64,000 nt of DNA from Membranipora membranacea (Eukaryota > Bryozoa > Gymnolaemata > Cheilostomatida > Membraniporidae), in NCBI GenBank assembly GCA_914767715.1, contig OU612071.1, positions 3,658,001-3,722,000 of the forward strand, given 5' to 3'. The notes under the pieces are model-generated. The model had not been told where the DNA came from. It did no database searches and was given only the letters and a program-made list of their open reading frames with translations. The number at the start of each line of letters is the position of its first letter. Within the stretch, counting starts at the first letter, position 1. The position numbers were made by a program, and so were the translations under genes. Shown piece after piece: positions 3,534 to 57,573 of this stretch.

Positions 3534-3924
3534 TTAGGGGTTAACACACTGAGCTCCCGCACATCCAGGGTCACAGTCATCGGGTGCAGTACCAGTACAG
3601 CAGCACTTACTTCCAGAGCAGGATCCCGTACAGTAACCTTTCACTCCACAAGAGACGTGACAGAAACCGTCAGACCCTGGACAGACTGAGGATGAGGAGC
3701 ACGCTACAATACAATAAAATACTAGTCAAGAAAACTGGCGTTTGAGGCAATATTCCAATCTGTCTACATATATTCTCAAGAGTAACAGCAAACATGTAAA
3801 GTGTGTTTGAGATACTGGGAACAAGTACTGAGCATAATAACTTACAAGCCGCTGTGGTGGAGCTGCAGAAAAAACCAAGGCAGATAAATGCTAGAATAAG
3901 GATCAGTGATTTGATGCTCGACAT
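3534..3924 (-). CDS. Crp1: secreted 12-Cys peptide precursor (U1 copy)
   Basis: Coding parts are 3846-3924 (79 nt) and 3534-3703 (170 nt), joined across a 142-nt GT-AG intron in phase 1. A noncoding exon 1 ends at 4291, followed by an intron of about 326 nt; 40 nt of 5' UTR precede the ATG in exon 2. The product has 82 residues: a 26-residue hydrophobic signal peptide ending in TTAA, then 56 residues with 12 Cys. Cys spacing is C-x5-C-x6-C-x3-C-x5-C-x3-C-x4-CCC-x7-C-x3-C-x4-C. The mature part has 4 Asp and 2 Lys, so it is mildly acidic. AATAAA lies at 3395-3400. Compared with the other copies, residue 18 is Phe instead of Leu and Gly46 has a silent change. A six-disulfide extracellular peptide (defence, toxin-like or structural) is inferred; the family is not recognised. 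Confidence 0.85.
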
Positions 3925-3992
3925 CAAAATAGAAGGTTGATCTATATGTCTCTGTGCAGATATGCTACAAAACAAATGACAAATGAGATATT

Positions 3993-3994
<2 letters not shown>

Positions 3995-4038
<44 letters not shown>
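3995..4038. repeat. (TA)n microsatellite in Crp1 intron 1
   Basis: A run of about 20 TA dinucleotides lies in intron 1, close to the exon 2 acceptor of Crp1. The other four copies carry only about 4-6 TA repeats here, so the expansion is private to U1 and explains its longer intron. Confidence 0.9.
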
Positions 4039-4043
<5 letters not shown>

Positions 4044-4341
4044 ATGAGAGATCAAGATGACTTTACCTGAGACCCTTGAGTATTCAATGCAGGAATGATA
4101 ACCAAAATACAGTGCGCAAACATACCCCATATTTCTTTATAGTCTATGCTACTAAGAGCTTTTACCCTTACAATACTATCATCATTCTGTGCTTTACATG
4201 GTGTATCATGGAAAAAGACTACCCCTATCAAATTTCATGAGATCAAACTAAATCAAATATTGTAAATTCAGATTTATCACAGATACTTACCTTCTTGAGA
4301 TAGAGAATGTTTGTGATGTTGATGTCTGCAGAGTCTTGAGC

Positions 4342-4348
4342 TTTTATA
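4342..4348 (-). promoter_or_regulatory. TATA box of Crp1
   Basis: TATAAAA on the minus strand lies about 50 nt upstream of the exon 1 donor (AAGAAG then GTAAGT at 4291). This predicts a transcription start near 4318 and a noncoding first exon of about 28 nt. The surrounding block, including TTGACACGTTAACACCAG, is conserved in all five units. Confidence 0.75.
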
Positions 4349-4399
4349 GTAAATAACAGTGAAAACTGGTGTTAACGTGTCAAAACGTCACTGGTTGGT

Positions 4400-7332: not shown

Positions 7333-9445
7333 ATACAACATACAGTGGTGCGCGTACCACTGCACAACACACAGGTCTTCAGCTAGAAACCATGAGTCAA
7401 ACGCTGTTTCAAGGCCTTCTCTAGTACAACCTCCTCATGGCCGGCCCCAGCAGCATGAAGCCACCCCTGTGTGTTGCTGAGCATCTCAATCAATCTCATC
7501 GATCCCTCAGTGCATTTTGTCAGTTTCGGTGGTTTGACATAATTGTTGTGTTTACGCTGTTGCGCAACCAGGGAGGCTGCCAACTCTTCATTGTTTCAGT
7601 GCAACAATGTTCGCCCCATCACTCTCATGCTTATACTCTAAGCCAAACCAGTGCAGGGAGGTTTGCTTTCCATCAACTCATCGACGCAAAGTCGCTATCG
7701 TCAAGGCACCCGCCCCTCGTGCCACTCGTTCACTACTCAAATTCACCACATTGAGCATAGTACAACTCATACACAAGTCAGAGAGATGACTTGTTTGCGC
7801 TACAGCCAGTGGGCTGACTGTGATTTCCTGTCTCGCTCTGCCTGCCTTTTGTGCGAGGGCCAAGCTTTTAATCCTATGTTTGTAAAACCTTAGATCTAAC
7901 TCAGACCCACTTTGATTTTCACTCTGCAGAGATTAAACTACTTTAATTTGAGTATTAAAGGCATAATCTTGCTTAGCCTTCTACCCCAAGCAATTTGCTT
8001 ATCATCACTTAATCCCCTCATCCTAGTCCTTACAAGGATTATAACAAAAGGAATTAAATGCTGGCCAACTCCACAAAACAAAGTGAGTGTGTTAAACCCC
8101 AGCTTACAAGTAATAGGATTACTTAGCTTTTGTCTTCACACAGTGCTGTTGCCATATCCATGCAGATGCGCTTTCTGCCTCATGTACTATGCTTTTTGTG
8201 GCTTGTTTGAGTGCTCTTCCTGAAAGCCCAACTCTGGTCAGAAATTTGGTAGCTGATCTAGCCATGAATCCACGGCAGCCAACTTCCACTGCGAATAATT
8301 CGCAATTCCAACCTTTGCCTTGGCATTGTGTGACCAGATCTTCGTATCTTGTCAGTTTTCTCTCATGCGCATATGAGAGATTTTCTTCCCAAGGCACCGT
8401 CAATTCCATCAGTATTAGTGCTTTTTCTTTGTCAGACCAAACAATTAAGTCTGGTCTTTGGTTCGTGATCACAATATGCTGTGGCATGCTGAGCTGCTCT
8501 GTGAGGTCGCATCTCACCTGCCATTCTCCGCTGTTCATCAATCCCTTTTTGCGCAAAATCTTTTCACGCGCTTCACCACCAGCATTAGCATATTCACACT
8601 TCTCCATGACTTATTTACACAACACTTTCAGGACTTGATTATGCCTATACGTGTATCTTCCCAGGCTCTGTTGGCAATTCGACAGTATATGTCGAAGTGT
8701 GCCCTTCGCCGAGCACTCGGCGCATTTCGAGTTCTCGGTCAAATTCCAGCGTTCCAGGTTTGCCGGGGTCGGTAGTTGATCATAAGCTGCACCAACCAGA
8801 AAGCTGATCCTTTGTGGCTCCATCGACCACAATTCTGTCCATTTGAGCTGACGCTGCTCAACAGACTCCCAACAAGTCCACCTGCCTTGTTGGGCTTGGC
8901 CTACAGCTTGTGTCTGGCGGCGCTCCTCTTCCATCTTGCGCACCTCATCAACTACCATCTCCCGTCTAACCTTTGGGCTTTCCTTTGAGAACCACCGGTT
9001 TGCTTCCCAGCCGATGCCATGACGTGCAGTTGTCACAGCACCCACAATCTCACTTATCTCCAGTCGAGATTTGGCATCTCTGACAGTCTCTGTGACAGAC
9101 CATTTTTTACCAGTGTCAAGTGTTGGAGCACATTCCCTTATCACCTGGTCTGGTGACTCGTTCAAGATCATATCCAGTCTCGCCTTTGATGTTTTGTACT
9201 CTTCCACAAGCGATTTCATAGGTAGTGAAAGAGTAAACGAACTGGCATACAGTGCATTAGTGTTGAAGCTCCTTGGAACTCCAAGCCACTTACGCATGTG
9301 CTTGTTAATCATTTGCTCCATTCTCTCAACTGGTGTTAGCGGAATATCATAAACTGTCAGAGGCCACAGAATTCGAGGCATGAGTGCAAAGTTGAGAATC
9401 CAGGCTTTGTATTTGCCAGACAGACCACATTTTTCAATCGCAATG
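7333..9445 (-). mobile_element. 5'-truncated R2-like non-LTR retrotransposon
   Basis: This is a sharp island of higher GC between U1 and U2. Going 5' to 3' on the minus strand it holds the C-terminal part of a reverse-transcriptase ORF, a CCHC knuckle, a restriction-like endonuclease domain and a 3' region of about 790 nt ending near 7333. A GTGGT..ACCAC hairpin is present at 7348-7363. The order RT, CCHC, endonuclease is that of non-LTR elements with a restriction-like endonuclease (the R2/CRE/NeSL-like group). The catalytic RT palm is missing, so the copy is dead. No target-site duplication can be seen because both flanks are unit breakpoints. Confidence 0.8.
8119..9445 (-). pseudogene. LINE ORF fragment: RT C-terminus, CCHC and endonuclease
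   Basis: The reading frame is open from the truncation point near 9445 and continues in one frame to the stop at 8119, apart from one TAA at 8611-8613. The first part includes the RT-tail motif RKWLGVPRSF and an arginine-rich region. It ends with a knuckle C-x2-C-x7-H-x4-C (residues about 220-236 counted from the Met at 9381), followed by RHNQVL. After the stop comes RPDLIVW with 14 residues between the Asp and an ELTVPWE segment, the PD..E signature of a restriction-like nuclease, then a KLTRYEDLV helix. Function in an intact element would be nicking of target DNA and target-primed reverse transcription. The in-frame stop and missing N-terminus make it a pseudogene. Confidence 0.8.
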
Positions 9446-10598
9446 TCATTTTAATTATAATCATATTATTTTTAGGCCAATGTTAGGAACAGGTGCCGTT
9501 TTTTTGCAGATTACTATTCTGACTCTGTTACTTCACACAAAGCTTGTTAAGAAGCTGCTCTGTAGTCAAAAGGAAGGTTCAATTCATTAGAAAATAAATC
9601 GCAGGCTTAGATTGAAAATGGTCCTCGTAGGTATGTGCAAAAATGGCAATACACGCTGGTTGCAGTCAAGGGGTCACGCTGTGTGCAAATGAATGGATTT
9701 TTAATTTGATGATAAAATATGAAATTTGAAGCAACGATTAGGAACAGTTCGAATAAAAAAGGGCCAATTATTTTGCTTTTTTCCACTATATCGCGGTTTA
9801 AATGACACACACCACAAATTTCAGCAGTATATCAAATGTATCAATATCAGGTTAGACCATCAAAGGTGGATACATTTTGCGCCATTATCAATAACGTCAA
9901 ACATGCTGTCAAAAGGTCCAGCACTAAGGCCAGACAAGTTTATTTGAAAATGCTCACATACGAAGCCGCTTTGATTAAGCATAGCACAAAGAGGAAAGGC
10001 CAACAGAATCTGGTACTATGTATTATTCTTCCTCAAATTGAGCCACACGGAATTCCAAAAATGACCTCAAAAAGCCCCTCAAATTGGCTGTTTATCAATG
10101 TAGCGCAGGCATCCACTTTGCTAAAAACAGCCCCTTCGGCCTCACTTCCCAGATAAAGTGACGCGATGTAATCCAATCATGTTTTTGATGAGATATTATC
10201 GATCGGTAGCTCAGCAGCCTTCCAACGGTATATAGAATGTCCAAATCGGTCAACGCTGGTATCATAACCTTAAGACCGAACCTAGTTATTTCTGTTACAA
10301 CGTGCAAACTTTTATTTGATGTAGGATTTAGCTTCGCAAAGTATAATTAGTGACTGATCGTTCCCTAATATTAAAACAAATGGTATATTTATGCTGTTTA
10401 CATAGTTATCCTGCATGTAAATCACTACATAGAAAAAACTTTGGCACAATATAAGGTGTCAGCACTAGCGAACACAAAGCCATTATGGATACTCTAACTA
10501 GGCTTTAGCAGAGAGAAATAATGGGGTAAGCAAAAATATCAAAATGCTATATTTATTCAATATCATATCAACCATATAGTCTGGCCTTTGATTTGTAG

Positions 10599-12800: not shown

Positions 12801-13080
12801 TCTGTTCTATCATCCTATAGTTAGGCTTTTTGAAGTCGAGACTATAACCATGACAAGATGAATTTTCCAGCTTAGATGTGAGATATGAACTTTTTGTGTT
12901 GCATATAAGATAAGATGTATTATGATATGATATATATCATTTTTATTGCAGTAAATCAGCTATGTAATATTTAAATATTCATGATATAAATATGTACTAG
13001 CATGATATAGCAGCTATTGTGGATCTGTGAAAACTTCAGGATGATGTTCTGTTCGATCTTCAAGGTGATGTTTGGTTCCT

Positions 13081-13471
13081 TTAGGGGTTAACACACTGAG
13101 CTCCCGCACATCCAGGGTCACAGTCATCGGGTGCAGTACCAGTACAGCAGCACTTACTTCCAGAGCAGGATCCCGTACAGTAACCTTTCACGCCACAAGA
13201 GACGTGACAGAAACCATCAGACCCTGGACAGACTGAGGATGAGGAGCACGCTACAATACAATAAAATACTAGTCAAGAAAACTGGCGTTTGAGGCAATAT
13301 TCCAATCTGTCTACATATATTCTGTAGAGTAACAGCAAACATGTAAAGTGTGTTTGAGATTTTGGGAACAAGTACTGAGCATAATAACTTACAAGCCGCT
13401 GTGGTGGAGCTGCAGAACAAACCAAGGCAGATAAATGCTAGAATAAGGATCAATGATTTGATGCTCGACAT
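13081..13471 (-). CDS. Crp2: secreted 12-Cys peptide precursor (U2 copy)
   Basis: Coding exons are 13393-13471 and 13081-13250, with a 142-nt intron between them. Exon 2 begins at 13511 and noncoding exon 1 ends at 13804. The signal peptide has the majority sequence (Leu18, Phe19, Cys20). The 56-residue mature part is the consensus, with one silent change at Asp38 (GAT for GAC). AATAAA is at 12942-12947. Gene structure, splice sites and TATA box are intact, so this copy should be expressible. Secretion is inferred from the signal peptide; pairing of the 12 cysteines and the target are unknown. Confidence 0.86.
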
Positions 13472-13854
13472 CGTGATAGAAGGTTGATCTATATGTCTCT
13501 TTGCAGATATGCTACGAAACAAATGACAAATGAGATATTTATTATATATATGTATGATGAGAGATCATGATGATTTTACCTGAGACCCTTGAGTGTTCAA
13601 TGCAGGAATGATAACCAAAATACAGTGCACAAACATACCCCATATTTCTTTATAGTCTGTGCTACTAAGAGCTCGTACCCTTACAATACTATCATCATTC
13701 TGTGCTTTACATGGTTTATCATGGAAAAAGACTACCCCTATCAAATTTCATGAGATCAAACTAAATCAAATATTGTAAATTCAGATTTATTACAGATACT
13801 TACCTTCTTGAGATAGAGAATGTTTGTAATGTTGATGTCTGCAGAGTCTTGAGC

Positions 13855-13861
13855 TTTTATA
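13855..13861 (-). promoter_or_regulatory. TATA box of Crp2
   Basis: TATAAAA on the minus strand sits about 50 nt upstream of the exon 1 donor at 13804. The expected start site is near 13830. The flanking sequence is nearly the same as at the other four genes. Confidence 0.75.
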
Positions 13862-13999
13862 GTAAATAACAGTGAAAACTGGTGTTAACGTGTCAAAACG
13901 TCACTGGTTGGTATTCTATTTAAGGTATCATAATGATGCGTGTTATCAAAGGCTTAAAGAGGAAGTACGGGTCAGATTCACTTTCTCCCGTCCCTATCC

Positions 14000-16216
14000 A
14001 GGTTGATAGATCACCCGATTCTTATTACGTGCATGTGCTCCAATTCGGCGCCAAATACATCATAACAATTTGTTTACATTTATAGGCAGGAATATGATGT
14101 CATAAGTAGGACTCTCATAAACAATTCCCTATCAATCAATAATGACTGATTTACATTTAGCGATATTTAGTATTTTTGAAAATCATTATAGCTACACACT
14201 CCTCAACCGTATTTGACTCTGCTGATGTAGTTTAACCTAATTTTTCTTTTTTAAAAGAAAATTAGATGTAAAAAAGTGTCGGAATACAATAATCTTGAGT
14301 TCAGTTTTAGTTGAATTACAGTGTCACAATGTCTGTCAAAGCAGGTGCACTGCATGATATTGATTTTCTAATGAATTATGAATCAATATATCATTTATTA
14401 TCATGCTTTACGCTATTAAATGTGGCTCAATGTAGCCTGTCTTGACAAGACATGCTATGCTCGATGTCATTACTGTGATATCAAAAGATATTTGGATGTA
14501 AATTTGAGCGTAGCAAATTGGTGAAAGTCTTTGTCTTTTGTTATCTCACCGCCGGGCGTTGAGGCTCCTCTATAGTGATTTACAGCTCGTCTGTACAGTG
14601 ATAGGTAGGTCAGTAGTCAGTGACAGCTGAATATCAAAAGAAAGTTGGCAGAATTAAAGATACAGTTTTTTGGAACAGTTTATAGCTGCCTGAATTCCAC
14701 GACTCACAGCTAGATCACAGTGAGGTACCTGAAAAAGGCCCTGATTACAGCAGGAGAGTTTCGAATCTCAAAGCATAGTGTTGGGGGTTAATCGGGTTAG
14801 AGGGGTAACAATGCTCTAGATGTTTAAGGATTAGTAAGTTGGTAGTATAAACCCATTCACATGCAGTAGAGATAGACACATGGACGGACCGCACGAGACC
14901 ACTGCTCTGAAAAATCTCTCAGTGGCACATCTGAAGGAATTGCGCAGGACTAGGTATATAGGAGATGTGAAATTCAACTACGTAATTATGAGGAAAATAT
15001 CACAGGGAACAATAATCAGTAAGGCAGACACAAAATAGCACACTGGAATGGGGAGGGAGTAGATGGGCTGTGGTATAAGGACAGGTCAGGGAGCTCTGTG
15101 TGGTCTATTGGTGAAAAAACACTTCTTCACATCCGTCGGAGTTAAATAAGTCGCATAACAATTCTTGTTCCCATATTATTACTCCCCGCACAAGTTGACC
15201 ACTGTAGATGGACTACCGAATCTCTATAATTAATGCTGGATCTGAATTTCAGTTCCTATCATGGTCCGATTCATTATCGTCATACTGCACAGCAGCCCCT
15301 GGTTGTTGCTCCAAGTCATCAGAAAAACGAATTTACAAATTGAAGTTCTTTCAGCTCAATGACAATTATGAAAATGAAACCAAATTAGCACATCAAAATC
15401 ATCGGCAGTAGAATTTTATGAAACAGTTATGCAACCCATGGTTCATTATTGATTTTGTAGTGAATTGTAAATCAACTGGTCATCATTCATCATGCTGTAT
15501 GCTACTAAGTACGGCTCAGTGGAAGTTCCCACTGGGTAATTACCGTGATGCCATATGTTTTGGATGTAAATATGAGCATAGCATATTGGTAAAAGAAAGT
15601 CGCATAGCATTTTTTTGGTCCATAATATTACTCCCCACATAAGTAAACCCCTGTAGGTGTACTAACAATTCTCTATAATGAATGCTGTACCAGAACTGCT
15701 CAACCTCTTTAAGTTTCATCATGTTTGTTTTTTTCAAGATCAAATTAAACATTTAAATCAAACCAAATAAAAAGTGAATCTTATAAATCACGACATACCG
15801 CCATTCATATTCATTATCACTCTGTGTGAAAAAGCTCAGGGTTATTTAGAATAAATATTCTAAACTTCAAAAACATGAGCTGATCGATGTTACGTCAATT
15901 GATACGGCGAGCTAATTATAACAGCGAAATATTTGTCTTGGTCAAGAATAGACTAGTCCTGCAGCTGAAGCACATGACTGTGTTGTTTTAATTGTGTGTT
16001 TATGCTGAGTTGTGGCACAATTTGCTGGATTTTGCTTCATCATAATTGCGGAGGCTCAAAAGTCAGACTAGATATTGGACGGATGGAAAAGTGAAAGTTT
16101 TTTTGTCAACACATGATAGAAGAGTTATTACAATACAGATTCTATGACTGATCTATGATCTGCTTTATCGCCACTATATCATTATTAATGGATAATTAAT
16201 GTCAAGCCTTGTTATC
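14000..16216. repeat. Crp upstream repeat zone of U2
   Basis: This copy matches the U1 zone but keeps an extra block at about 14,430-14,640 (shared with U3 and U4 and absent from U1 and U5). A 70-codon minus-strand ORF (15540-15752) is open here and in U3-U5. Its length follows from low divergence between units and it has no recognisable domain, so I do not call it a gene. Confidence 0.55.
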
Positions 16217-18700: not shown

Positions 18701-18704
18701 AACA

Positions 18705-22240: not shown

Positions 22241-24050
22241 TATAGAGAATTGTTAGTACACCTACAAGGGTTTACTTATGTGGGGAGTAATATTATGGAC
22301 CAAAAAAATGTTATGCGACTTTCTTTTACCAATATGCTATGCTCAAATTTGCATCCAAAACATATGACATCACGGTAATTACCAAGTCGGAAAATCCACT
22401 GAGCCGTACTTAGTAGCATACAGCATGATGAATGATGACCAGTGGTTTACAATTCACTACGAAATCAATAATGAACCATGGGTTGCATAACTGTGTCATA
22501 AAATTCTACTGCCGATGATTTTGATGTGCTAATTTGGTTTCACTTTCATAATTGTCATTGAGCTGAAAGAACTTCAATTTGTGAATTTATTTTTCTGATG
22601 ACTTGGAGCAACAACCAGGAGCTGCTTTGCAGTATGACGATAATGAATCGGTCCACGATAGGAACTAAAATTCAGATCGAGCATTAATTATAGAGACTCG
22701 GTAGTCCATCTACAGTGGTCAACTTGTGCGGGGAGTAATAATATGGGAACAAGAATTGTTATGCAACTTATTTAACACCGACGGATGTGAAGAAGTTTTT
22801 TTCACCAATGGACTACACAGAGCTCCCTGACCTGTCCTTATACCACAGCCCATCTACTCCCTCCCCATTCCAGTGTGCTATTTTGTGTCTGCCTTACTGA
22901 TTATTGTTCTCTGTGTTATTTTCCTCATAATTACGTAGTTGAAATTCACATCTCATATATACCTAGTCCTGCGCAAGTCCTTCAGATGTGCCACTGAGAG
23001 ATTTTTCAGACCAGTGGTCTCGTGCGGTCCGTCCATGTGTCTATCTCTACTGCATGTGAATGGGTTTATACTACCAACTTACTGATCCTTAAACATCTAG
23101 AGCATTGTTACCCCTCTAACCCGATTAACCCCCAACACTATGCTTTGAGATTTGAAACTCTCCTGCTGTAATCAGGGCCTTTTTCACGTACTTCACTGTG
23201 ATCTAGTTGTGAGTCGTGGAATTCCGGCCGCTATAAACTGTTCCAAAAACCTGTATCTTTAATTCTGCCAACTTTCTTTTGACATTCAGCTGTCACTGAC
23301 TACTGACCTACCTATCACTGTACAGACGAGCTGTGAATCACTATAGAGGAGCCTCAACGCCCGGCGGTGATATAACAAAAGACAAAGACTTTCACCAATT
23401 TGCTATGCTCAAATTTACATCCTAATATCTTTTGATATCACAGTAATTACATTGAGCATAGCATATTTGTCAAGACAGGCTACATTGAGCCATATTCAAT
23501 AGCGTGAAGCATGATGATAAATGATATATTGATTCATAATTCATTAGAAAATCAATATCATGCAGTGCACCTGTTTTGACAGACATTGTGACGCTGTAAT
23601 TTAACTATAAACTGAACTGAAGATTATTGTATTCCTACACTTTTTTACATCTCATTTTCTTTTAAAAAAGAAAAATTACGTTAAACTACATCAGCAGAGT
23701 CAAATATGGTTGAGTAGTGTGTAGCTATAATGATTTTAAAAATACTAAATATCGCTAAATGTAAATCAGTCATTATTAATTGATAGGGAATTGTTTATGA
23801 GAGTCCTTCTTATGAATCATATTCCTGCCTATAAATGTAAACAAATTTTTATGATGTATTTGGCGCCGAATTGGAGCACATGTACGTAATAAGAATCAGG
23901 TGATCTATCAACCTGGATAGGGACGGGAGAAAGTGAATCTGACCCGTACTACCTCTTTAAGCCTTTGATAACATGCATCATTATGATACCTTAAATAGAA
24001 TACCAACCAGTGACGTTTTGACACGTTAACACCAGTTTTCACTGTTATTT
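22240..24050. repeat. Crp upstream repeat zone of U3
   Basis: Diverged direct repeats: 22,250-22,330 resembles 22,690-22,780 (both contain GGGGAGTAATA), and 22,332-22,470 resembles 23,395-23,560 (ATGCTATGCTCAAATTT and CAGCATGATGA-type blocks). This suggests local tandem growth before the whole unit was copied. No gene is supported. Confidence 0.55.
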
Positions 24051-24052
24051 AC

Positions 24053-24059
24053 TATAAAA
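24053..24059 (+). promoter_or_regulatory. TATA box of Crp3
   Basis: TATAAAA lies 51 nt before the exon 1 donor (exon end 24110). Transcription is expected to start near 24083, giving a noncoding exon of about 28 nt. Confidence 0.75.
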
Positions 24060-24449
24060 GCTCAAGACTCTGCAGACATCAACATCACAAACATTCTCTA
24101 TCTCAAGAAGGTAAGTATCTGTAATAAATCTGAATTTATAATATTTGATTTAGTTTGATCTCATGAAATTTGATAGGGGTAGTCTTTTTCCATGATACAC
24201 CATGTAAAGCACAGAATGATGATAGTATTGTAAGGGTACAAGCTCTTAGTAGCATAGACTATAAAGAAATATGGGGTATGTTTGTGCACTGTATTTTGAT
24301 TATCATTCCTGCATTGAACACTCAAGGGTCTCAGGTAAAATCATCATGATCTCTCATCATACATATTATATATATATAATAAAAATGTCATTGGTCATTT
24401 GTTTCGTAGCATATCTGCAAAGAGTTGTATAGATCAACCTTCTATCACG

Positions 24450-24840
24450 ATGTCGAGCATCAAATCACTGATCCTTATTCTAGCATTTATCTGCCTTGGT
24501 TTGTTCTGCAGCTCCACTACAGCGGCTTGTAAGTTATTATGCTCAGTACTTGTTTCCAATATCTCAAAGACACTTTACATGTTTGCTGTTACTCTTGAGA
24601 ATATATGTAGACAGATTGGAATATTGCCTCAAACGCCAGTTTTCTTGACTAGTATTTTATTGTATTGTAGGGTGCTCCTCATCCTCAGTCTGTCCAGGGT
24701 CTGACGGTTTCTGTCACGTCTCTTGTGGCGTGAAAGGTTACTGTACGGGATCCTGCTCTGGAAGTAAGTGCTGCTGTACTGGTACTGCACCCGATGACTG
24801 TGACCCTGGATGTGCGGGAGCTCAGTGTGTTAACCCCTAA
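24450..24840 (+). CDS. Crp3: secreted 12-Cys peptide precursor (U3 copy, Trp27)
   Basis: Coding exons are 24450-24528 and 24671-24840. Noncoding exon 1 ends at 24110, intron 1 is 299 nt, exon 2 starts at 24410 and intron 2 is 142 nt. AATAAA is at 24974-24979. The signal peptide is the majority type. The first base of exon 3 is G instead of C, so the junction codon is TGG and residue 27 becomes Trp instead of Ser, right after the predicted signal cleavage site (TTAA). The remaining 55 residues, with all 12 cysteines, are the consensus. The bulky residue could shift cleavage or alter the N-terminus; this is inference. The gene otherwise looks intact. Confidence 0.85.
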
Positions 24841-25079
24841 AGGAACCAAACATCACCCTGAAGATCTAACAGAACATCATCCTGAGGTTTTCACAGATCA
24901 ACAATAGCTGCTAAATCATGCTAGTAACTATTTATATCATGAATATTTAAATATTACATAGCTGATTTACTGCAATAAAAAATGATATATATCATATCAT
25001 CATACATCTTATCTTAAATGCAACACAAAAAATTCATATCTCACATCTAAGCTGGAAAATTCAACTTGTCATGGTTATA

Positions 25080-27128: not shown

Positions 27129-27326
27129 GGCAGAATTCTACAGATGACACAATATTCAGAATTGGGTATCTGCTCTCTTCAAGGAGGCTGTCCGTTAGTC
27201 TCTGATTCGAGTCTTCGGGTATTTCTGTAACAGTGCCGTCAAATGTGACATCAGTAGACCAGGTTACCGCCAGAGTATCACTGTAACAGCTCAGCTTAGC
27301 CTGAGAGCCAACCTTAGGGCTGCAAT
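27129..27326 (-). CDS. Ig-like domain exon, U3 copy
   Basis: 198 nt, phase 1 at both ends, with acceptor TTTGTAG and donor GTGAGT. It carries the Cys..LSCYSD..VTWSTDV pattern and ends at VSSVEFC. It lies on the same strand as, and downstream of, the module exons at 28501-28990, so it could be their continuation: a modular extracellular protein reading leftward from the NHL exon into U3. Confidence 0.6.
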
Positions 27327-28329
27327 CTACAAATCAAAGGCCAGACTATATGGTTGATATGATATTGAATAAATACAGCATTTTGATATTTTTGCTTACC
27401 CCATTATTTCTCTCTGCTAAAGCCTAGTTAGAGTATCCATAATGGCTTTGTGTTCGCTAGTGCTGACACCTTATATTGTGCCAAAGTTTTTTCTATGTAG
27501 TGATTTACATGCAGGATAACTATGTAAACAGCATAAATATACCATTTGTTTTAATATTAGGGAACGATCAGTCTCTAATTATACTTTGCGAAGCTAAATC
27601 CTACATCAAATAAAAGTTTGCACGTTGTAACAGAAATAACTAGGTTATGATACAAGCGTTGACCGATTTGGACATTCTATATACCGTTAGAAAGCTGCTG
27701 AGCTACTGATCGATAATAGCTCATCAAAAACATGATTGGATTTCATTGCGTCAGTTTATCGGAGAGATGAGGCCGAAGGGGCTGTTTTTAACAAAGTGGA
27801 TGGCTGCACTACATTGATAAACAGCCAATTGGAGGGGCTTTTTAAGGTGTTTTTTGGCATTCCGTGTGGCGCAATTCGAGGAAGACTAATACATAGTACC
27901 ATATTCTGTTGGCCTTTCCTCTTTATACTATGCTTAATCAAAGCGGCTTCGTATGTGAGAATTTTCAAAACAAACTTGTCTGGCCTTAGTGCTGGACCTT
28001 TTGACAGCATGTTTGACGTCATTGATAAATGTATCCACCTTTGATGGTCTAACCTGATATTGATACATTTGATATACTGCTGAAATTCGTGTTGTGTGTC
28101 ATTTAAACAGCAATATAGTGGAAAAAAGCAAAATAATTGGCCCTTTTTTATTCGAACTGTCTCTAATCGTTGCTTAAAATTTCGTATTATATCATCAAAT
28201 TAAAAAAACCACACGCATTATGACGCGACGTAAAAAGCCACTTTAGGCTCGTCAAATATTATTTTCAACCTAAAATTAGAATGAACTATGTCTCTAAGAA
28301 TGAATGTAACCTGTTTTGAACTTTCTAGT

Positions 28330-29344: not shown

Positions 29345-29702
29345 CTTGAGGAAAGAAATATACAAAACTCTTGATAACCTGTTTAAATTATTCATGATAC
29401 TCGAATGATCCTAGCCGGATAAAAGACATAGCAAAGTATACCAATTATTAAGTTCAAAATTCAATTGAAGACAACCTGTAAGCAGTTGATACTTCTACAA
29501 TGAAAAATCATCAGAATTAACATTAAAATCAGAATAGGCTTGTTTTAGAATATCTATCAGTAATATGAAGCATTCTTCAGACTTCAAAGGTTGATATACA
29601 AATACTCTGATTGAATTTTGGTTTGAATGTGGATTTTGATTCTAAATAATATGTTACAATCAAATTAATTAGAGTTTGAGCCTCAACTATACATTTACTC
29701 AC

Positions 29703-30036
29703 CATTAATTAACACTAAAGTATTAACAGTACAATTGTTTGTGTGAATCATATGACTCCCCACTGATGATTCCATTTGAACATCAGGGCTTATTTTCACT
29801 AACGCTCTTCCCCCATAGGATGTTACATAGACTGTGATGTTTCTATCCTTACAATGTATTTTGGTAGTTGTGGGTATCGTTGGAGTTTTGGTGGTTGTGT
29901 AGGGTGTCTCTGTTGGCGATTTGGTTGTTGGCGGTGTGGTAGTTGAAGGTGTGCTAGTTGACAGTGGGGTGGTTGTCGGTGTGGTTGTTGCAGCAGCAGT
30001 GGTGTTCAAGGTAGAATTTGTTAGTGTGGTCGTCAT
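29703..30036 (-). CDS. Thr-rich mucin-like exon with Cys module, copy 1
   Basis: From an ATG at 30036 the frame encodes about 60 residues almost wholly of Thr, Ser, Pro and Ala, then a module beginning C-KDRNITVYVTS and ending NNCTVNTLVLING at a GTGAGT donor in phase 1. The Thr/Pro tract is a typical O-glycosylated spacer. No signal peptide follows the ATG, so it is more likely an internal exon between the NHL part and the modules. However, I find no clear acceptor just upstream, so the 5' edge is uncertain. Confidence 0.55.
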
Positions 30037-30319
30037 TTTTACATCGACACAATAAATTCCAGTATAGTTTAATAATTTTAAATTGAATTTATAGGTTAAC
30101 CATGCAATGCATTCTCATTTTGTTCAGAAAGTTCAGAAAGATATATAAGGTAAACATTTTGCGTTGCCATAAGGTGTGCGGATATTTCACTTAAGACATA
30201 TCAGCCATACAAAGACTTAGTGTTAAATGTGTATTTACCTGTGCCTACCAAATCAACATTGTGTACCAAGTCATACAATCACACATTTATAATGTACATA
30301 ATATACACAGTCAACTCAC

Positions 30320-30733
30320 AAGTAATCTACGGGATTCTTCCCATTGTTCGACATAAAGAGAGTGATTAGTGATATTACAGACCCGGGAAAGTAAAACTGA
30401 CCAGGGTGACCATCTTTGTATCCCCGTGACTGACACTCTGCGCTTAAGACAGATGTGATCCCTGTGAGGTGGTCAATCACCCTCAGGCAGTTATTATAAC
30501 AGTCAACTACAACCATATCTGTGATCTGTGTGAATCCATTTGTAGAGTTGAACTGAGCCTCAGATCCCCTCCCCTCTCTGTATCCTCTCTCATTAGGTTT
30601 ACCAGCTATGATTGTAGATGACATACCACCACCAGTCTTCAGAGAGTGTAGGTCAGTGTATATCAGATTGCCTGGTCTGAATATATCCATGTGAGAGGTG
30701 GTGGTGGAGTTTACAGCTGTAGATCTCTCTAAT
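30320..30733 (-). CDS. NHL-propeller exon, copy 1 (internally deleted)
   Basis: Acceptor TTTCACAG at 30734, donor GTGAGT below 30320; 414 nt. The frame starts LERSTAVNSTTTSHMDI and contains an NHL-type blade: IIAGKPNERGYREGRGSEA, then FN..NGFTQI and VVVDCYNNCLRVID. Compared with copy 2 (850 nt) it lacks about 143 codons between FPGSVI and LITLFMSNN, so the propeller cannot close. It is also one G short near the 3' end, so the exon exits in another phase. It is probably a decayed copy of a secreted or surface NHL protein. Confidence 0.6.
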
Positions 30734-36622: not shown

Positions 36623-36699
36623 GTATGTTGGAGAGAAACAGGATGCGAAACCCTGTTACCCACACTAACATCTAACAGTTTCACCTTCCTGTCCTCTTT

Positions 36700-38920: not shown

Positions 38921-38924
38921 GAGA

Positions 38925-39640
38925 TGGATGGATGGATTTATTACTATCATAGACAAAAATTTGTCACGAAATACGTTGTTAATACTAACAAGAAAGAAAA
39001 ACATGGAAAAATCAGATCTCTGTTGTACAAAAAGTTTTTTAGAATAGTATATTATTAAGTGTATGTATGAGATGTCTTAAAAAGCTGTCTCTACCCCATG
39101 TACCCCGATATTTAACGGTGCGGTAGCGACCTGAGGGGCATTTAGTTAGAAAGTCATTGATAAAGTGCTCTTCATCGTGTATGTACCGTAGTCCAAGTGT
39201 CTTGATCTGGTTGGCCACCAGAGCATCTACATCGGGGTGCTCAATCCCTAACTTGGCGGCATCTTTAAATATTTTGCATAAGCACTTCTTGTCGCTTGCA
39301 TGGATGCTTGTAAAAAGTATGGGGAGACAGTAAGTGATGAGGGATACAATAAAACTCTTGAATAACATATGAGAAAGGGGCTTTGAGCTATAGTATACAA
39401 AATTTTTCACAATATACATGCGTTGAGATGCAGTAGTCACTATGGATTGCACATGATCATGATAGCGGAGTTTATCGTCAACAGTAACACCAAGGTAATT
39501 TACTAAGAGCTGAGCGATATGTTTTTTTCGTCGTGTTTTATTGACGGCTCTCGATTTCATATGTCCATCATATCTCTCAATCACAGGCACTGTAATGCAC
39601 AGTCTCAAAGCTTCATTTCCAAGTGGCTATTGCTGTTCTG
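38925..39640 (-). mobile_element. 5'-truncated LINE (CR1/jockey-like RT tail)
   Basis: A single open frame (39039-39608 and a few codons upstream, to a stop near 39,620) encodes the RT C-terminal region. It includes NYLGVTVDDKLRYHDHV, the thumb-region motif of LINE reverse transcriptases, then FKSFIVSLITYCLPIL and a basic tail (RYRTVKYRGTWGRDSF). The minus-strand 3' end is a short (CCAT)n array at about 38,925-38,937, a common tail type for such elements. The catalytic YxDD region is missing. The frame is uninterrupted over 189 codons, so the insertion may be fairly young. Confidence 0.75.
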
Positions 39641-44780: not shown

Positions 44781-46570
44781 TACAGGGGTTTACTTATGTG
44801 GGGAGTAATATTATGGACCAAAAAAATGTTATGCGACTTTCTTTTACCAATATGGTATGCTCAAATTTGCATCCAAAACATATGACATCACGGTAATTAC
44901 CAAGTGGGAAATTCCACTGAGCCGTACTTAGTAGCATACAGCATGATGAATGATGACCAGTGGTTTACAATTCACTACGAAATCAATAATGAACCATGGG
45001 TTGCATAACTGTGTCATAAAATTCTACTGCCGATGATTTTGATGTGCTAATTTGGTTTCACTTTCATAATTGTCATTGAGCTGAAAGAACTTCAATTTGT
45101 GAACTTATTTTCCTGATGACTTGGAGCAACGCAACCAGGAGGTGCTTTGCAGTATGACGATAATGAATCGGTCCGCGATAGGAACTAAAATTCAGATCCA
45201 GCATTAATTATAGAGACTCGGTAGTCCATCTACAGTGGTCAACTTGTGCGGGGAGTAATAATATGGGAACAAGAATTGTTATGCAACTTATTTAACACCG
45301 ACGGATGTGAAGAAGTTTTTTTTCACCAATGGACTACACAGAGCTCCCTGACCTGTCCTTATACCACAGCCCATCTACTCCCTCCCCATTCCAGTGTGCT
45401 ATTTTGTGTCTGCCTTACTGATTATTGTTCTCTGTGTTATTTTCCTCATAATTACGTAGTTGAAATTCACATCTCATATATACCTAGTCCTGCGCAAGTC
45501 CTTCAGATGTGCCACTGAGAGATTTTTCAGACCAGTGGTCTCGTGCGGTCCGTCCATGTGTCTATCTCTACTGCATGTGAATGGGTTTATACTACCAACT
45601 TACTGATCCTTAAACATCTAGAGCATTGTTACCCCTCTAACCCGATTAACCCCCAACACTATGCTTTGAGATTTGAAACTCTCCTGCTGTAATCAGGGTC
45701 TTTTTCACGTACTTCACTGTGATCTAGTTGTGAGTCGTGGAATCCCGGCCGCTATAAACTGTTCCAAGAACCTGTATCTTTAATTCTGCCAACTTCCTTT
45801 TGACATTCAGCTGTCACTGACTACTGACCTACCTATCACTGTACAGACGAGCTGTAAATCACTATAGAGGAGCCTCAACGCCCGGCGGTGATATAACAAA
45901 AGACAAAGACTTTCACCAATTTGCTATGCTCAAATTTTCATCCTAATATCTTTTGATATCACAGTAATTACATTGAGCATAGCATATTTGTCAAGACAGG
46001 ATACATTGAGCCATATTTACTAGCGTGAAGCATGATGATAAATGATATATTGATTCATAATTCATTAGCAAATCAATATCATGCAGTGCACCTGCTGTGA
46101 CTGACATTGTAACGCTGTAATTTAACTATAAACTGAACTGAAGATTATTGTATTCCTACACTTTTTTACATCTAATTTTATTTTAAAAAAGAAAAATTAC
46201 GTTAAACTATATCAGCAGAGTCAAATATGGTTGAGGAGTGTGTAGCTATAATGATTTTCAAAAATACTGAATATCGCTAAATGTAAATCAGTCATTATTG
46301 ATTAATAGGGGATTGTTTATGAGAGTCCTACTTATGACATCATATTCCTGCCTATAAATGTAAACAAATTTTTATGATGTATTTGGCGCCGAATTGGAGC
46401 ACATGTACGTAATAAGAATCAGGTGATCTATCAACCTGGATAGGGACGGGAGAAAGTGAATCTGACCCGTACTACCTCTTTAAGCCTTTGATAACATGCA
46501 TCATTATGATACCTTAAATAGAATACCAACCAGTAACGTTTTGACACGTTAACACCAGTTTTCACTGTTA
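44780..46570. repeat. Crp upstream repeat zone of U4
   Basis: Very close to the U3 zone, including the two sets of diverged direct repeats. No gene is supported. Confidence 0.55.
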
Positions 46571-46575
46571 TTTAC

Positions 46576-46582
46576 TATAAAA
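46576..46582 (+). promoter_or_regulatory. TATA box of Crp4
   Basis: TATAAAA lies 51 nt before the exon 1 donor (exon end 46633), as in the other copies. Confidence 0.75.
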
Positions 46583-46972
46583 GCTCAAGACTCTGCAGAC
46601 ATCAACATCACAAACATTCTCTATCTCAAGAAGGTAAGTATCTGTAATAAATCTGAATTTATAATATTTGATTTAGTTTGAACTCATGAAATTTGATAGG
46701 GGTAGTCTATTTCCATGATACACCATGTAAAGCACAGAATGATGATAGTATTGTAAGGGTACAAGCTCTTAGTAGCATAGACTATAAAGAAATATGGGGT
46801 ATGTTTGTGCACTGTATTTTGATTATCATTCCTGCATTGAACACTCAAGGGTCTCAGGTAAAATCATCATGATCTCTCATCATACATATTATATATATAT
46901 AATAAAAATGTCATTGGTCATTTGTTTCGTAGCATATCTGCAAAGAGTTGTATAGATCAACCTTCTATCACG

Positions 46973-47363
46973 ATGTCGAGCATCAAATCACTGATCCTTA
47001 TTCTAGCATTTATCTGCCTTGGTTTGCTCTGCAGCTCCACTACAGCGGCTTGTAAGTTATTATGCACAGTACTTGTTTCCAATATCTCAAACACACTTTA
47101 CATGTTTGCTGTTACTCTTGAGAATATTTGTAGACAGATTGGAATATTGCCTCAAACGCCAGTTTTCTTGACTAGTATTTTATTGTATTGTAGCGTGCTC
47201 CTCATCCTCAGTCTGTCCAGGGTCTGACGGTTTCTGTCACGTCTCTTGTGGCGTGAAAGGTTACTGTACGGGATCCTGCTCTGGAAGTAAGTGCTGCTGT
47301 ACTGGTACTGCACCCGATGACTGTGACCCTGGATGTGCGGGAGCTCAGTGTGTTAACCCCTAA
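46973..47363 (+). CDS. Crp4: secreted 12-Cys peptide precursor (U4 copy)
   Basis: Coding exons are 46973-47051 and 47194-47363. Exon 2 starts at 46933 and noncoding exon 1 ends at 46633. AATAAA is at 47497-47502. Residue 19 in the signal peptide is Leu instead of Phe. Exon 3 is the consensus nucleotide sequence with no change. Intact TATA box, splice sites and poly(A) signal indicate a working gene. Confidence 0.86.
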
Positions 47364-47599
47364 AGGAACCAAACATCACCCTGAAGATCTAACAGAACAT
47401 CATCCTGAGGTTTTCACAGATCAACAATAGCTGCTAAATCATGCTAGTACCTATTTATATCATGAATATTTAAATATTACATAGCTGATTTACTGCAATA
47501 AAAAATGATATATATCATATCATCATACATCTTATCTTAAATGCAACACAAAAAATTCATATCTCACATCTAAGCTGGAAAATTCATCTTGTCATGGTT

Positions 47600-50218: not shown

Positions 50219-50600
50219 GTTGTTGTGAAGACATGAAGAAGTCAGCATCAGCTCAGCATAAGCTTACCTTTATCTTAGTCGGATAAACCAGCCGACATGA
50301 TGGGAAAACAGAATAGCATCAAATGACTGCTGAGTCTGGTTACACATGAACTCAAATTAGCCAGAACATAGAATAATGGACTCCAATTAGCGTTCTGTTA
50401 CATGAAACATATGAAAGAGAATAATGTGAAAAATAAATATACCATTTGTTTTAATATTAGGGAACGATCAATCTCTAATTATACTTTGCGAAGCTAAATC
50501 CTACATCAAATAAAAGTTTGCACGTTGTAACAGAAATACCTAGGTTATTATACCAGCGTTGACCGAATTGGACATTCTATATACCGTTGGAAAGCTGCTG
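50219..50600. repeat. Local duplication inside the U4/U5 R zone
   Basis: After CTATATACCGTTG the sequence jumps back: 50,219-50,430 repeats 49,420-49,615 (the exon-like segment and its donor), then 50,437-50,590 repeats 50,050-50,220. The R zone then continues normally. This is a short tandem duplication with an internal deletion, found only here. Confidence 0.75.
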
Positions 50601-53005: not shown

Positions 53006-53074
53006 AAGGTAAAACTATCAAATTCCGTTTCAGCAGTTCTGTTTGGTTATATCATACAAACGTACATGCTGCTG

Positions 53075-53270
53075 CTTATACCGAAAGGCTGGGGTAGACC
53101 GCTAGCACAGAACAGTCTGGGTGGCCAGAACAAGTAATAAAAACCACCTTAGCCCTTTGTCCTTCAAACCGAATATCCACAACAAACTCCTCTGATATGT
53201 ACACAGCAATTCCACCATGAAACCGAGATCTGCTGAACCAGTTTTAACCATAATATAGTTCTCATTGTAA
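53075..53270 (-). mobile_element. LINE endonuclease remnant, U5 copy
   Basis: Counterpart of 19,640-19,860 and 42,545-42,720, recognised by the R-F-HGG-A-VYIS pattern on the minus strand. Confidence 0.45.
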
Positions 53271-53759
53271 TTAAGGTATGCCTCTGAAGGAGTAGTTTAT
53301 AATATATTTCACTACTTTGAGTGAAAAAAATAGCCAAATTACACTGTTAAGTTGTCCCATCACTAAACAGAGTATTGTTGCATGTCAACGTAATCTTATT
53401 TGGTTGAAATTAAAATTTTTGTTCTGTATAGAAACTATCTGCTTCATTCAAAAATATCTAATTGTAAATGAAATCTGAATCCTCCTCCTTACTCTCATTC
53501 TTGCTACATCAATATGAATTGGCTTCATTGCCAGTTAGATCTTTATCGCTCTGTGATTTGAATATTTTCCCTGCGATAAAAGTCTATCTGGCTTGGTTAA
53601 TTGTAATTAAGGGATTAAAAAAATTAATGTATAGAAGTTTCAACTCATGGTAATTATATCATTTCATAACAAAGTCACATAGGTAAAATTTAAAACTATC
53701 GGGTTAAAAGTTTTCAAGAAACAGGCCTGTCAACCTTAGATTTGAATTTCTGCAAATTG

Positions 53760-55190
53760 GAAAAATGTCCAGATAGTACTTTGTCGCGCTGGGCCTGCAA
53801 ATTTATATATGTTCATATATATGCTACAGGATTTCGGTTCACAAATACACAGCAACTTTTCATTAGAGTCTATGCAACTGAAAACCACTACATTATCAAT
53901 ACTTTTGTCATTCTGTGCTTTACACTCTGCTTCATGAATCAATACTACAACTATCGAATTAGATGAGATCAAATGTAATGTAGCAACCAAATCAAACTTG
54001 ATCAAGTCGGACTTACCACAGTAACTTACCTCCTTGACCTAGAGAATGTATGTAAATGTAATCTTAGGCAAATTTTAGGCAAATTTCATCATGTTTGTTT
54101 TTTCACAATCAAATTAAAACTGAGTGTTTTAAATAACGTTATGACGTACATACAGTCATTCAAATTTATTATCACGTATTCAAAAGATAAAATATCCAGG
54201 CTAGTTTGAATCTAATAGATTATGCCTCGACATACGTGGGCTGATTAATGTGGCATTGTTTGATATTGGCAAGCAAATTATAAGATCAAAATTTTTTCCT
54301 TGTCAGAAATAGACTAGTTATGTAGCTAAAGCGCATGACTTGTCGGTTTCAATCGATGGTCTTCTGCCAAGTTGCTAAATTTTGCACCATCATAATTGAG
54401 GAGTGTCAAAACAGATAGGATATTGGGAGAATAGAAGTCACAAACAATTTTGAAGCAAGCTGGCGTTGGCGTTGCCATTTATTGCTAATAGCGGAATTGA
54501 TGATCTGTTTTAATCGCAACATTGTGATAGAAGAGTGATTTTAATATGCAGATCCTATGACTGATCTATGCTGTCTTTTTTGCTTGTATTTTGCCTCATG
54601 CATTTTATTACGTATATTATTAGATTATATTTGGTAGGCTTGACATTAATTATCCATTAATAATGATTTAGTGGTGATAACGCAGATCATAGATCAGTCA
54701 CAGAATCTTTATTGTAATAACTCTTCTATCATGTGTTGACACAAAAATATCAATAAATGGCATACTTTTACTTTTCCATCCGTCCAATATCTAGTCTGAA
54801 TTTTGAGCCTCCGCAATTATGATGAAGCAAAATCCAGGAAATCGTAGAACAACTCAGCATAAAACACACAATTAAAACAACACAGTCATGTGCTTCAGCT
54901 GCAGGACTAGTCTATTCTTGACCAAGACAAATATTTTGCTGTTATAATTAGCTCGCCGTATCAATTGACGTAACATCGATCAGCTCATGTTTTTGAAGTT
55001 TAGAATATTTATCATAAATAAACCTGAGCTTTTTCACACAGAGTGATAATGAATATGAATGGCGGCATGTCGTGATTTATAAGATTCAGTTTTTATTTGA
55101 TTTGATTTAAATGTTTAATTTGATCTTGAAAAAAACAAACATGATGAAACTTAAAGAGGTTGAGCAGTTCAGGTGCAGCATTCATTATAG
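53760..55190. repeat. Internal inverted repeat of U5
   Basis: Third complete example, with the centre near 54,610. The left-arm tip (53,760-54,045) carries the decayed Crp 5' region on the minus strand, including the CTTACCTCC donor-like site at about 54,025. Confidence 0.65.
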
Positions 55191-56790
55191 AGAATTGTTA
55201 GTACACCTACAGGGGTTTACTTATGTGGGGAGTAATATTATGGACCAAAAAAATGTTATGCGACTTTCTTTTACCAATATGGTATGCTCAAATTTGCATC
55301 CAAAACATATGACATCACGGTAATTACCAAGTGGGAAATTCCACTGAGCCGTACTTAGTAGCATACAGCATGATGAATGATGACCAGTTGATTTACAATT
55401 CACTACGAAATCAATAATGAACCATGGGTTGCATAACTGTGTCATAAAATTCTACTGCCGATGATTTTGATGTGCTAATTTGGTTTCACTTTCATAATTG
55501 TCATTGAGCTGAAAGAACTTCAATTTGTGAATTTATTTTTCTGATGACTTGGAGCAACAACCAGGAGCTGCTGTGCAGTATGACGATAATGAATCGGTCC
55601 ACGATAGGAACTGAAATTCAGATCAAGCATTAATTATAGAGACTCGGTAGTCCATCTACAGTGGTCAACTTGTGCGGGGTGTAATAATATGGGAACGAGA
55701 ATTGTTATGCGACTTATTCAACACCGACGGATGTGAAGAAGTGTTTTTTCACCGATAGACTACACAGAGCTCCCTGACCTGTCCTTATACCACAGCCCAT
55801 CTACTCCCTCCCCATTCCAGTGTGCTTTTTTGTGTCTGCCTTACTGATTATTGTTCTCTGTGATATTTTCCTCTTAATTAAGTAGTTGAATTTCACATCT
55901 CATATATACCTAGTCCTGCGCAATTCCTTCAGATGTGCCACTGAGAGATTTTTCAGACCAGTGGTCTCGTGCGGTCCGTCCATGAGTCTATCTCTACTGC
56001 ATGTGAATGGGTTTATACTACCAACTTACTGATCCTTAAACATCTAGAGCATTGTTATCCCTCTAACCCGATTAACCCCCAACACTATGCTTTGAGATTC
56101 GAAACTCTCCTGCTGTAATCAGGGCCTTTTTCACATACTTCACTGTGATCTAGTTGTGAGTCGTGGAATTCCGGCCGCTATAAACTGTTCCAAAAAACTG
56201 TATCTTTAATTCTGCCACCTTTGAGCCATATTTAATAGCGTAAAGCATGATGATAAATGATATATTGATTCATAATTCATTAGAAAATCAATATCATGCG
56301 GTGCACCTGTTTTGACAGACATTGTGACGCTGTAATTTAACTATAAACTGAACTGAAGATTATTGTATTCCTACACTTTTTTACATCTAATTTTCTTTTA
56401 AAAAAGAAAAATTACGTTAAACTACATCAGCAGAGTCAAATATGGTTGAGGAGTGTGTAGCTATAATGATTTTCAAAAATACTAAATATCGCTAAATGTA
56501 AATCAGTCATTATTGATTGATAGGGAATTGTTTATGAGAGTCCTACTTATGACATCATATTCCTGCCTATAAATGTAAACAAATTGTTATGATGTATTTG
56601 GCGCCGAATTGGAGCACATGTACGTATTAAGAATCGGGTGATCTATCAACAAGGATAGGGACGGGTGAAAGTGAATCTGACCTGTACTCCCTCTTTAAGC
56701 CTTTGATAACATGCAACATTATGATACCTTAAATAGAATACCAACCAGTGACGTTTTGACACGTTAACACCAGCTTTCACTGTTATTTAC
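55190..56790. repeat. Crp upstream repeat zone of U5
   Basis: Shorter than in U3 and U4: the block equivalent to 23,270-23,490 is deleted at about 56,220, as in U1. No gene is supported. Confidence 0.55.
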
Positions 56791-56797
56791 TATAAAA
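56791..56797 (+). promoter_or_regulatory. TATA box of Crp5
   Basis: TATAAAA lies 51 nt before the exon 1 donor (exon end 56848), with the same spacing as in Crp3 and Crp4. Confidence 0.75.
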
Positions 56798-57182
56798 GCT
56801 CAAGACTCTGCAGACATCAACATCACAAACATTCTCTATCTCAAGAAGGTAAGTATCTGTAATAAATCTGAATTTATAATATTTGATTTAGTTTGATCTC
56901 ATTAAATCTGATAGGGGTAGTCTTTTTCCATGATACACCATGTAAAGCACAGAATAATGATAGTATTGTAAGGGTACAAGCTCTTAGTAGCATAGACTAT
57001 AAAGAAATAAGGGGTATGTTTGTGCACTGTATTTTGGTTATCATTCCTGCATTGAACACTCAAGGGTCTCAGGTAAAGTCATCATGATCTCTCATCATAC
57101 ATATATATATAATAAAAATCTCATTGGTCGTTTGTTTTGTAGCATATCTGCAAAGAGTTTTATAGATCAACCTTCTATCACG

Positions 57183-57573
57183 ATGTCGAGCATCAAATCA
57201 CTGATCCTTATTCTAGCATTTATCTGCCTTGGTTTGTTCCGCAGCTCCACCACAGCGGCTTGTAAGTTATTATGCTCAGTACTTGTTCCCAATATCTCAA
57301 ACACACTTTACATGTTTGCTGTTACTCTTGAGAATATATGTAGACAGATTGGAATATTGCCTCAAACGCCAGTTTTCTTGACTAGTATTTTATTGTATTG
57401 TAGCGTGCTCCTCATCCTCAGTCTGTCCAGGGTCTGACGGTTTCTGTCATGTCTCTTGTGGCGTGAAAGGTTACTGTACGGGATCCTGCTCTGGAAGTAA
57501 GTGCTGCTGTACTGGTACTGCACCTGATGACTGTGACCCTGGATGTGCGGGAGCTCAGTGTGTTAACCCCTAA
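57183..57573 (+). CDS. Crp5: secreted 12-Cys peptide precursor (U5 copy)
   Basis: Coding exons are 57183-57261 and 57404-57573. Exon 2 starts at 57143 and exon 1 ends at 56848. AATAAA is at 57707-57712. Cys20 in the signal peptide is replaced by Arg, a charged residue at the end of the hydrophobic core, which might weaken export. The mature part is the consensus protein with two silent changes (His42 CAT, Pro67 CCT). A plus-strand ORF from 57084 reads through both introns' edges and is not the real product. Confidence 0.85.

Follow-up and report, generated by a model that had tools for sequence, protein, structure and literature searches.

Acidic 12-cysteine peptides from a recently amplified gene family of the bryozoan Membranipora membranacea, probable members of the CS-alpha-beta superfamily

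A window of 64,000 nucleotides in the 339-Mb, 18-contig genome of the bryozoan Membranipora membranacea (contig OU612071.1, here called C7, positions 3,658,001-3,722,000) carries five copies, U1 to U5, of a small gene for a cysteine-rich peptide. The pattern C-x5-C-x6-C-x3-C-x5-C-x3-C-x4-CCC-x7-C-x3-C-x4-C is found at five sites and at no others when the whole window is translated in six frames, and the 52 residues that it covers are identical at all five. The layout of the copies is also the same throughout: a TATA box is followed by a short, noncoding exon 1 with the donor AAG/GTAAGT, an exon for a signal peptide, a second intron of 142 bp in phase 1, a single domain exon with the stop codon, and AATAAA (Table 1). 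Both the cysteine pattern and this three-exon organization had been proposed in the original prediction, and the DNA of all five copies bears them out; from these features we infer that the three exons are spliced into one transcript. A search of the window for further paralogues, by tblastn and a scan for cysteine density, returned only weak or low-cysteine matches. An NF-kB-like site is present in U1 alone among the five copies.

Table 1. Window coordinates of the five gene copies and of two segments of the peptide encoded by U5
Feature	Position	Strand	Cys-pattern site	Details
U1	3400..4349	-	3546-3701	TATA 4349; exon 1 end 4291; exon 2 3964-3846 (ATG 3924, signal peptide); exon 3 3703-3534 (mature domain and stop); AATAAA 3400
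U2	12947..13862	-	13093-13248	TATA 13862; exon 1 end 13804; exon 2 13511-13393 (ATG 13471); exon 3 13250-13081; AATAAA 12947
U3	24052..24979	+	24673-24828	TATA 24052; exon 1 end 24110; exon 2 24410-24528 (ATG 24450); exon 3 24671-24840 (Trp27 for Ser27); AATAAA 24974
U4	46575..47502	+	47196-47351	TATA 46575; exon 1 end 46633; exon 2 46933-47051 (ATG 46973); exon 3 47194-47363; AATAAA 47497
U5	56790..57712	+	57406-57561	TATA 56790; exon 1 end 56848; exon 2 57143-57261 (ATG 57183); exon 3 57404-57573; AATAAA 57707
CS-alpha-beta-like core of U5 (precursor residues 34-64)	57424..57516	+		C-x6-C-x3-C-x5-C-x3-C-x4-CCC; same core in U1-U4
C-terminal extension of U5	57517..57570	+		Cys70, Cys74, Cys79; Cys74 and Cys79 absent from two 10-Cys relatives

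The precursor of 82 residues consists of a signal peptide and a cysteine-rich domain only, its reading frame stopping after VNP. The mature part of 56 residues contains 12 Cys, 4 Asp and 2 Lys and has an isoelectric point (pI) of 4.56 and a net charge of about -3 (computed about -2.7), in agreement with the mild acidity originally noted for the same composition. The signal peptide is hydrophobic and ends in ...TTAA; its hydropathy and the Thr and Ala at positions -3 and -1 fit cleavage, and the peptide is thus probably cleaved and secreted. Together with 12 cysteines in 56 residues, these features support the earlier description of a signal peptide followed by a dense cysteine array. Residue 27 is Trp in U3 and Ser in the other copies, and three residues of the signal peptide vary among the five. 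The signal frame remains open through intron 2 in all five copies, yet five of seven changed codons are nonsynonymous; a retained-intron product looks unconstrained and was rejected.

The five copies sit in segmental duplications, in both orientations. U2 to U5 are mutually 94-98% identical across 3.5-3.8 kb, and U1 is 94-96% identical to them over a block of ~2.2 kb that contains the gene, with rearranged flanks. Because the copies are duplicates, the pattern does not recur by chance. Mature codons 28-82 show four synonymous and no nonsynonymous changes among the five copies, while 93 of 1006 columns of introns and upstream DNA (9.2%) are variable. By Fisher tests, the absence of change at 126 nonsynonymous sites differs from the 4 changes at 39 synonymous sites (p 0.0028) and from the 93 variable columns among 1006 in introns and upstream DNA (p 1.8e-5), and it would have a probability of about 5e-6 at the rate of the flanks; these values take sites as independent, although the copies have a common ancestry. 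Against this variation, the lack of nonsynonymous changes indicates that the mature peptide is under purifying selection and is not a relic. Variation at silent sites (4/39) is close to that of introns, so gene conversion is an unlikely cause of the peptide's identity. Within the duplicated DNA, an insertion of ~207 bp lies upstream of U2, U3 and U4 (14434-14640, 23276-23481 and 45797-46000) and is absent at that place in U1 and U5, and two modules of ~210 bp (27323-27532; 50220-50432) occur in six copies each inside the duplication blocks, the others being 95-99.5% identical.

A search of the genome extended the family beyond the window. The five copies originally described are all there, but the genome holds at least 14 domain copies, within 244 kb (C7:3,494,244-3,738,038), 13 of which are near-identical and span ~194 kb. 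Twelve of these 13 have an intact precursor: 11 were found complete by script, and the twelfth, at C7:3544262, missed the script's start pattern, but its signal exon is intact by tblastn. The remaining copy, at C7:3573504-3573671, has an intact domain exon but no TATA box, first donor or start of the signal exon, and is probably 5'-truncated. Among the 13, six mature codons are variable (five synonymously, one from Pro to Ser), as are 15 of the 142 columns of intron 2. The fourteenth copy, a paralogue at C7:3494244, is 70% identical and has an intact precursor, a second intron of 783 bp, all 12 cysteines and the core loops 6-3-5-3-4; its comparison with a window copy gave dN 0.276, dS 2.6 (near saturation) and dN/dS 0.105. 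This is a real, selected and amplified gene family.

Searching with this paralogue, and then with one of its matches, we found two 10-Cys relatives, at C6:4760181-4760333 (E 0.093) and C7:3515143-3515295 (E 0.0023). In both, a signal exon is followed by an intron in phase 1 and then directly by a single domain exon, and exactly the last two cysteines, 74 and 79, are missing. Upstream of the C6 relative, a TATA-like box and a first exon are readable. In the same relative the signal peptide is followed by KKK; if this stretch is kept, the pI is 9.69 and the relative is the only basic one among the four distinct members (window peptide, paralogue and the two 10-Cys relatives). A weak match to it at C2:3435403-3435483 (E 0.105) has lost most cysteines and is unlikely to be a family gene; it would reflect chance or the decayed remains of a family member. 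The search with the paralogue also gave matches on C4 and C11, which lie outside the loci inspected.

The arrangement of the core cysteines points to the cysteine-stabilized alpha-beta (CS-alpha-beta) fold of the cis-defensin superfamily. Residues 34-62 of the window core, Cys34-x6-Cys41-x3-Cys45-x5-Cys51-x3-Cys55-x4-Cys60-Cys61-Cys62, fit the consensus C-X(3,18)-C-X3-C-X(7,9)-[GS]-X-C-X(4,13)-C-X-C given for nematode and sponge ASABFs (PMC3210614). All four distinct members fit it (permutation p 0.038, 0.020, 0.009 and 0.006). With 12 cysteines in 56 residues such a fit is cheap by itself (p about 0.037 for the window peptide), but the exact spacing is not: the six core cysteines, spaced 6, 3, 9, 4, 1, agree exactly with the ASABF of the sponge Suberites domuncula (permutation p 0.0007). 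The two precursors are of similar length (83 residues in the sponge, 82 here), and both have a further cysteine between the third and fourth core cysteines (PMC3210614). In this comparison, confined to cysteine positions, the sponge peptide has 8 Cys and a mature pI of 9.24 (PMC3210614), whereas the window peptide has 12 Cys, a CCC triplet, a C-terminal extension and a pI of 4.56.

Other members of the superfamily show partial likenesses. With nasonin-1 (PF01097; PDB 2koz, 2e3e) the window peptide shares the core motif C-x3-C ... K-G-Y-x-T-G-x-C ... C-x-C. Typical insect defensins have six cysteines (PMC5116183), to which the bryozoan peptide adds six more and an acidic charge. Macins, CS-alpha-beta peptides with 8-12 Cys, resemble it in their high cysteine count and in an N-terminal cysteine before the core, and their ten-Cys forms have a fifth bond, C5-C10 (PMC5116183); however, in the reference array the position of C7 in macins is between C6 and C8, whereas here the extra cysteine falls between C8 and C9 and creates the CCC triplet. 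Mytimycin combines a 12-Cys mature peptide of 54 residues with an EF-hand extension of 75 residues, which the window peptide lacks.

Database searches led in the same direction, below curated thresholds. No named family in Pfam or NCBIfam matched the window peptide at the curated cut-off, one whole-length search of a large protein database gave nothing at E <=1, and the whole sequences of the two 10-Cys relatives had no Pfam match. The whole paralogue matched PF01097 (E 0.061, under cut-off). The excised cores of all four distinct members matched PF24552, which we counted as a defensin model (E 0.0037, 0.011, 0.02 and 0.19), and one core also matched PF01097 (E 0.021) and PF14866 (E 1.3). By comparison, of 20 cores shuffled with their cysteines kept in place (ten from the window peptide, ten from the paralogue), one gave a Pfam match (gamma-thionin, E 1.1). 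Among the PDB matches of single members, eight of eight and seven of nine (largely the same entries), and eight of ten for the paralogue, have a fold that we take to be CS-alpha-beta, as presumably do six of ten matches of the core alone; the other core matches were one unspecified venom polypeptide, helianthamide (E 6.3) and two spasmolytic polypeptides. A profile built from the four members matched nasonin-1 best (E 0.0017), and 14 of its 17 PDB matches carry the names of defensins (arthropod, plant or other), nasonin or scorpion toxins, with one unspecified and two unrelated. In the genome itself, PF24552 matches (11 rows) revealed no clear CS-alpha-beta gene at the seven loci inspected (on C2, C4, C9 and C10, and three on C8), the best being that on C9 (E 0.0084); one C8 row and the C5 rows, a pair of which passes the cut-off when summed and has a stop inside, lie outside this inspection. 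Such weak matches are unlikely to be family genes. The domain gave nothing informative against viral and genome contig collections, and among titles and abstract openings in the literature none describes the 12-Cys framework, a weak negative.

The original prediction had been unable to match the framework to any named knottin, defensin or toxin family. This still holds for named families at curated cut-offs, but the core fits the CS-alpha-beta consensus and the family profile reaches CS-alpha-beta structures. The window peptide can thus be placed, most probably as an acidic and unusual representative of the defensin superfamily. Among other arrays, the patterns of snakin, granulin, WAP, alpha-defensin and CC-type knottin do not fit; a loose knottin pattern fits, but so do 61% of permutations.

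Several observations weigh against this placement. The whole mature window peptide had no Pfam match at all; Pfam matches needed the paralogue or an excised core, the cores were excised after the first PDB matches, and their best scores stay under the curated cut-offs (15.2 of 20.4 bits for PF01097, 17.7 of 27 bits for PF24552). The PDB matches of single sequences (E about 0.02) barely outscore the best decoy among five (P-selectin, E 0.059), and two decoys matched scorpion peptides (Venom protein 51.1, E 0.15; neurotoxin V, E 2.8), indicating that cysteine density alone attracts such matches. The decoy comparisons cover the single sequences and cores; the matches of the profile (best E 0.0017), including 6bi5 'Defensin-1' (E 6.2) and 6px8 'Venom polypeptide', were classed by name. 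AlphaFold2 models made without an alignment were uninformative and lend no support: their predicted local distance difference test scores (pLDDT) were 54.7 and 57.8, strands (three) but no helix appear in the full model, and a Foldseek search gave no match. The strict 8-Cys pattern of molluscs and nematodes (MGD type), in which the last cysteine follows C-x-C by two residues, does not fit; it matches only if that cysteine may lie further on (permutation p 0.005). In addition, ASABFs are cationic and the window peptide is acidic. Finally, CCC can be read either as the C-x-C of cis-defensins or as including the CC of trans-defensins.

The last point leads to the main competing explanation, that the peptide is a trans-defensin, like beta-defensins, the C-terminal domain of big defensins or the coral SCRiPs, in which the bonds of adjacent triplet cysteines run opposite ways and a helix-free sheet of three strands forms the core. 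A phase-I intron at the 5' end of the cysteine-rich part is common to big- and beta-defensin genes, and the former mostly comprise three exons, of which the second and third are coding (PMC7203481), as found here. Moreover, the low-confidence full AlphaFold2 model has three strands, and a beta-defensin regular expression fits the window peptide. That expression, however, also fits 10% of permutations, and a phase-1 intron after the signal peptide is common among secreted proteins. Big defensins also combine an N-terminal hydrophobic domain with a cationic six-Cys C-terminal domain (PMC7203481), and the window precursor has no such N-terminal domain. The SCRiPs of corals and sea anemones are small, secreted and mostly anionic, with five single cysteines followed by CCC near the C-terminus (PMC2652719, PMC10892658). 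Their pattern C-x6-7-C-x4-6-CP-x3-6-C-x4-6-C-x5-6-CCC is nevertheless not that of the window peptide, which has loops of 6, 3, 5, 3 and 4, no Pro after the third core cysteine and four more cysteines; in all 24 frameworks listed in PMC10892658, loop 2 has 4-6 residues and the last loop before CCC has 5-7, against 3 and 4 here. Up to E 10, no PDB match was named beta-defensin, big defensin or SCRiP; helianthamide (E 6.3) matched the core only, and the profile matched 6bi5, named simply 'Defensin-1' (E 6.2). As the SCRiP loop ranges do not fit and the sequence matches favour the cis side, we regard a trans-defensin as unlikely but keep it as the main rival.

There are two further alternatives. 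A secreted inhibitor of microbial proteases, comparable to the molluscan Family I84, would share with that family 12 Cys, an acidic pI (4.98-6.11), three exons and tandem expansion (PMC9198434), and plant trypsin inhibitors have the CS-alpha-beta motif as well (PMC7203481). The I84 array C-x5-8-C-x4-5-C-x7-9-C-x4-CTC-x6-23-C-x5-7-C-x3-6-C-x5-8-C-x4-CxC is absent here, though, with none of four patterns for array and modules matching, and the 12 cysteines of I84 are split 6 + 6 over two exons (PMC9198434) while all of those in the bryozoan gene lie in one, making an inhibitor of this kind very improbable. A role as venom, allomone or structural matrix peptide instead of immune effector could draw on the scaffold shared with scorpion toxins, and amplification with a fixed sequence would suit a bulk product. 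Venom families, in contrast, often diversify in sequence, whereas this one is held fixed, and we give this possibility little weight, if slightly more than an inhibitor.

On balance, the genes probably form a family that is lineage-specific and recently amplified and encodes secreted CS-alpha-beta peptides of the cis-defensin superfamily, with host defence as the most likely role. The spliced mRNA would contain the noncoding exon, the signal-peptide exon and, beyond the phase-1 intron, one domain exon; cleavage of the signal peptide near Ala26 would release an acidic peptide of 56 residues and about 5.3 kDa. Residues 34-62 would form a helix and a beta-hairpin, held by the usual bonds 34-55, 41-60 and 45-62. 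A fourth bond, 51-70, would correspond to that of the 8-Cys members in molluscs, nematodes and sponges, the mollusc and nematode array (PMC5116183) underlying the bonds proposed here. Two extra bonds may link 28-61 and 74-79, the latter suggested by the joint absence of the last two cysteines from both 10-Cys relatives. The 13 near-identical copies, 12 with an intact precursor, could supply a high dose of one product. As a secreted defence effector, this product would bind a specific target such as a microbial wall precursor, an enzyme or a channel, since its net charge of about -3 disfavours charge-driven membrane lysis.

The window also contains elements outside this family. Two duplicated NHL-repeat-like genes lie at 29551-31785 and 60756-64000 (Pfam NHL 18.2 bits, cut-off 20); the gene copies have a Thr-rich, mucin-like neighbouring open reading frame, and their four closest homologues are 44-56% identical. 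Retroelement remnants occur on the minus strand at 8122-9450 and 39042-39626, with a zf-RVT match just under cut-off in the reading frame 8614-9450 and the others recognized by eye. Neither the NHL-like protein nor the retroelement reading frames gave anything informative against viral and genome contig collections. A tRNA-like match at 59077-59144 (minus strand; 32 bits, gathering 29), not called by ARAGORN, is possibly a tRNA-derived short interspersed element, and a similar stretch seems, by eye, to lie in intron 2 of the paralogue at C7:3494244.

If the placement is correct, an orphan 12-Cys family joins a known superfamily and widens its known range. The novelty would lie in the variant, with its 12 cysteines, CCC triplet, C-terminal extension and net negative charge, which, if all cysteines pair, would be an acidic, CCC-bearing CS-alpha-beta peptide with six disulfides. 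More tentatively, and as a possibility that falls short of likely, the peptides could represent a new subfamily of CS-alpha-beta peptides: the extra cysteine inside C-x-C would be locked to an N-terminal cysteine, a separate C-terminal loop would have its own bond, and cationic membrane attack would have given way to a secreted, acidic effector with a specific target, made in an amount governed by the number of near-identical copies (13). The 10-Cys relatives in the same genome offer a starting point for tracing the origin of the extra disulfides. The locus itself is a clean case of dosage amplification, with 13 copies in ~194 kb whose mature peptide is almost fixed while introns and flanks drift.

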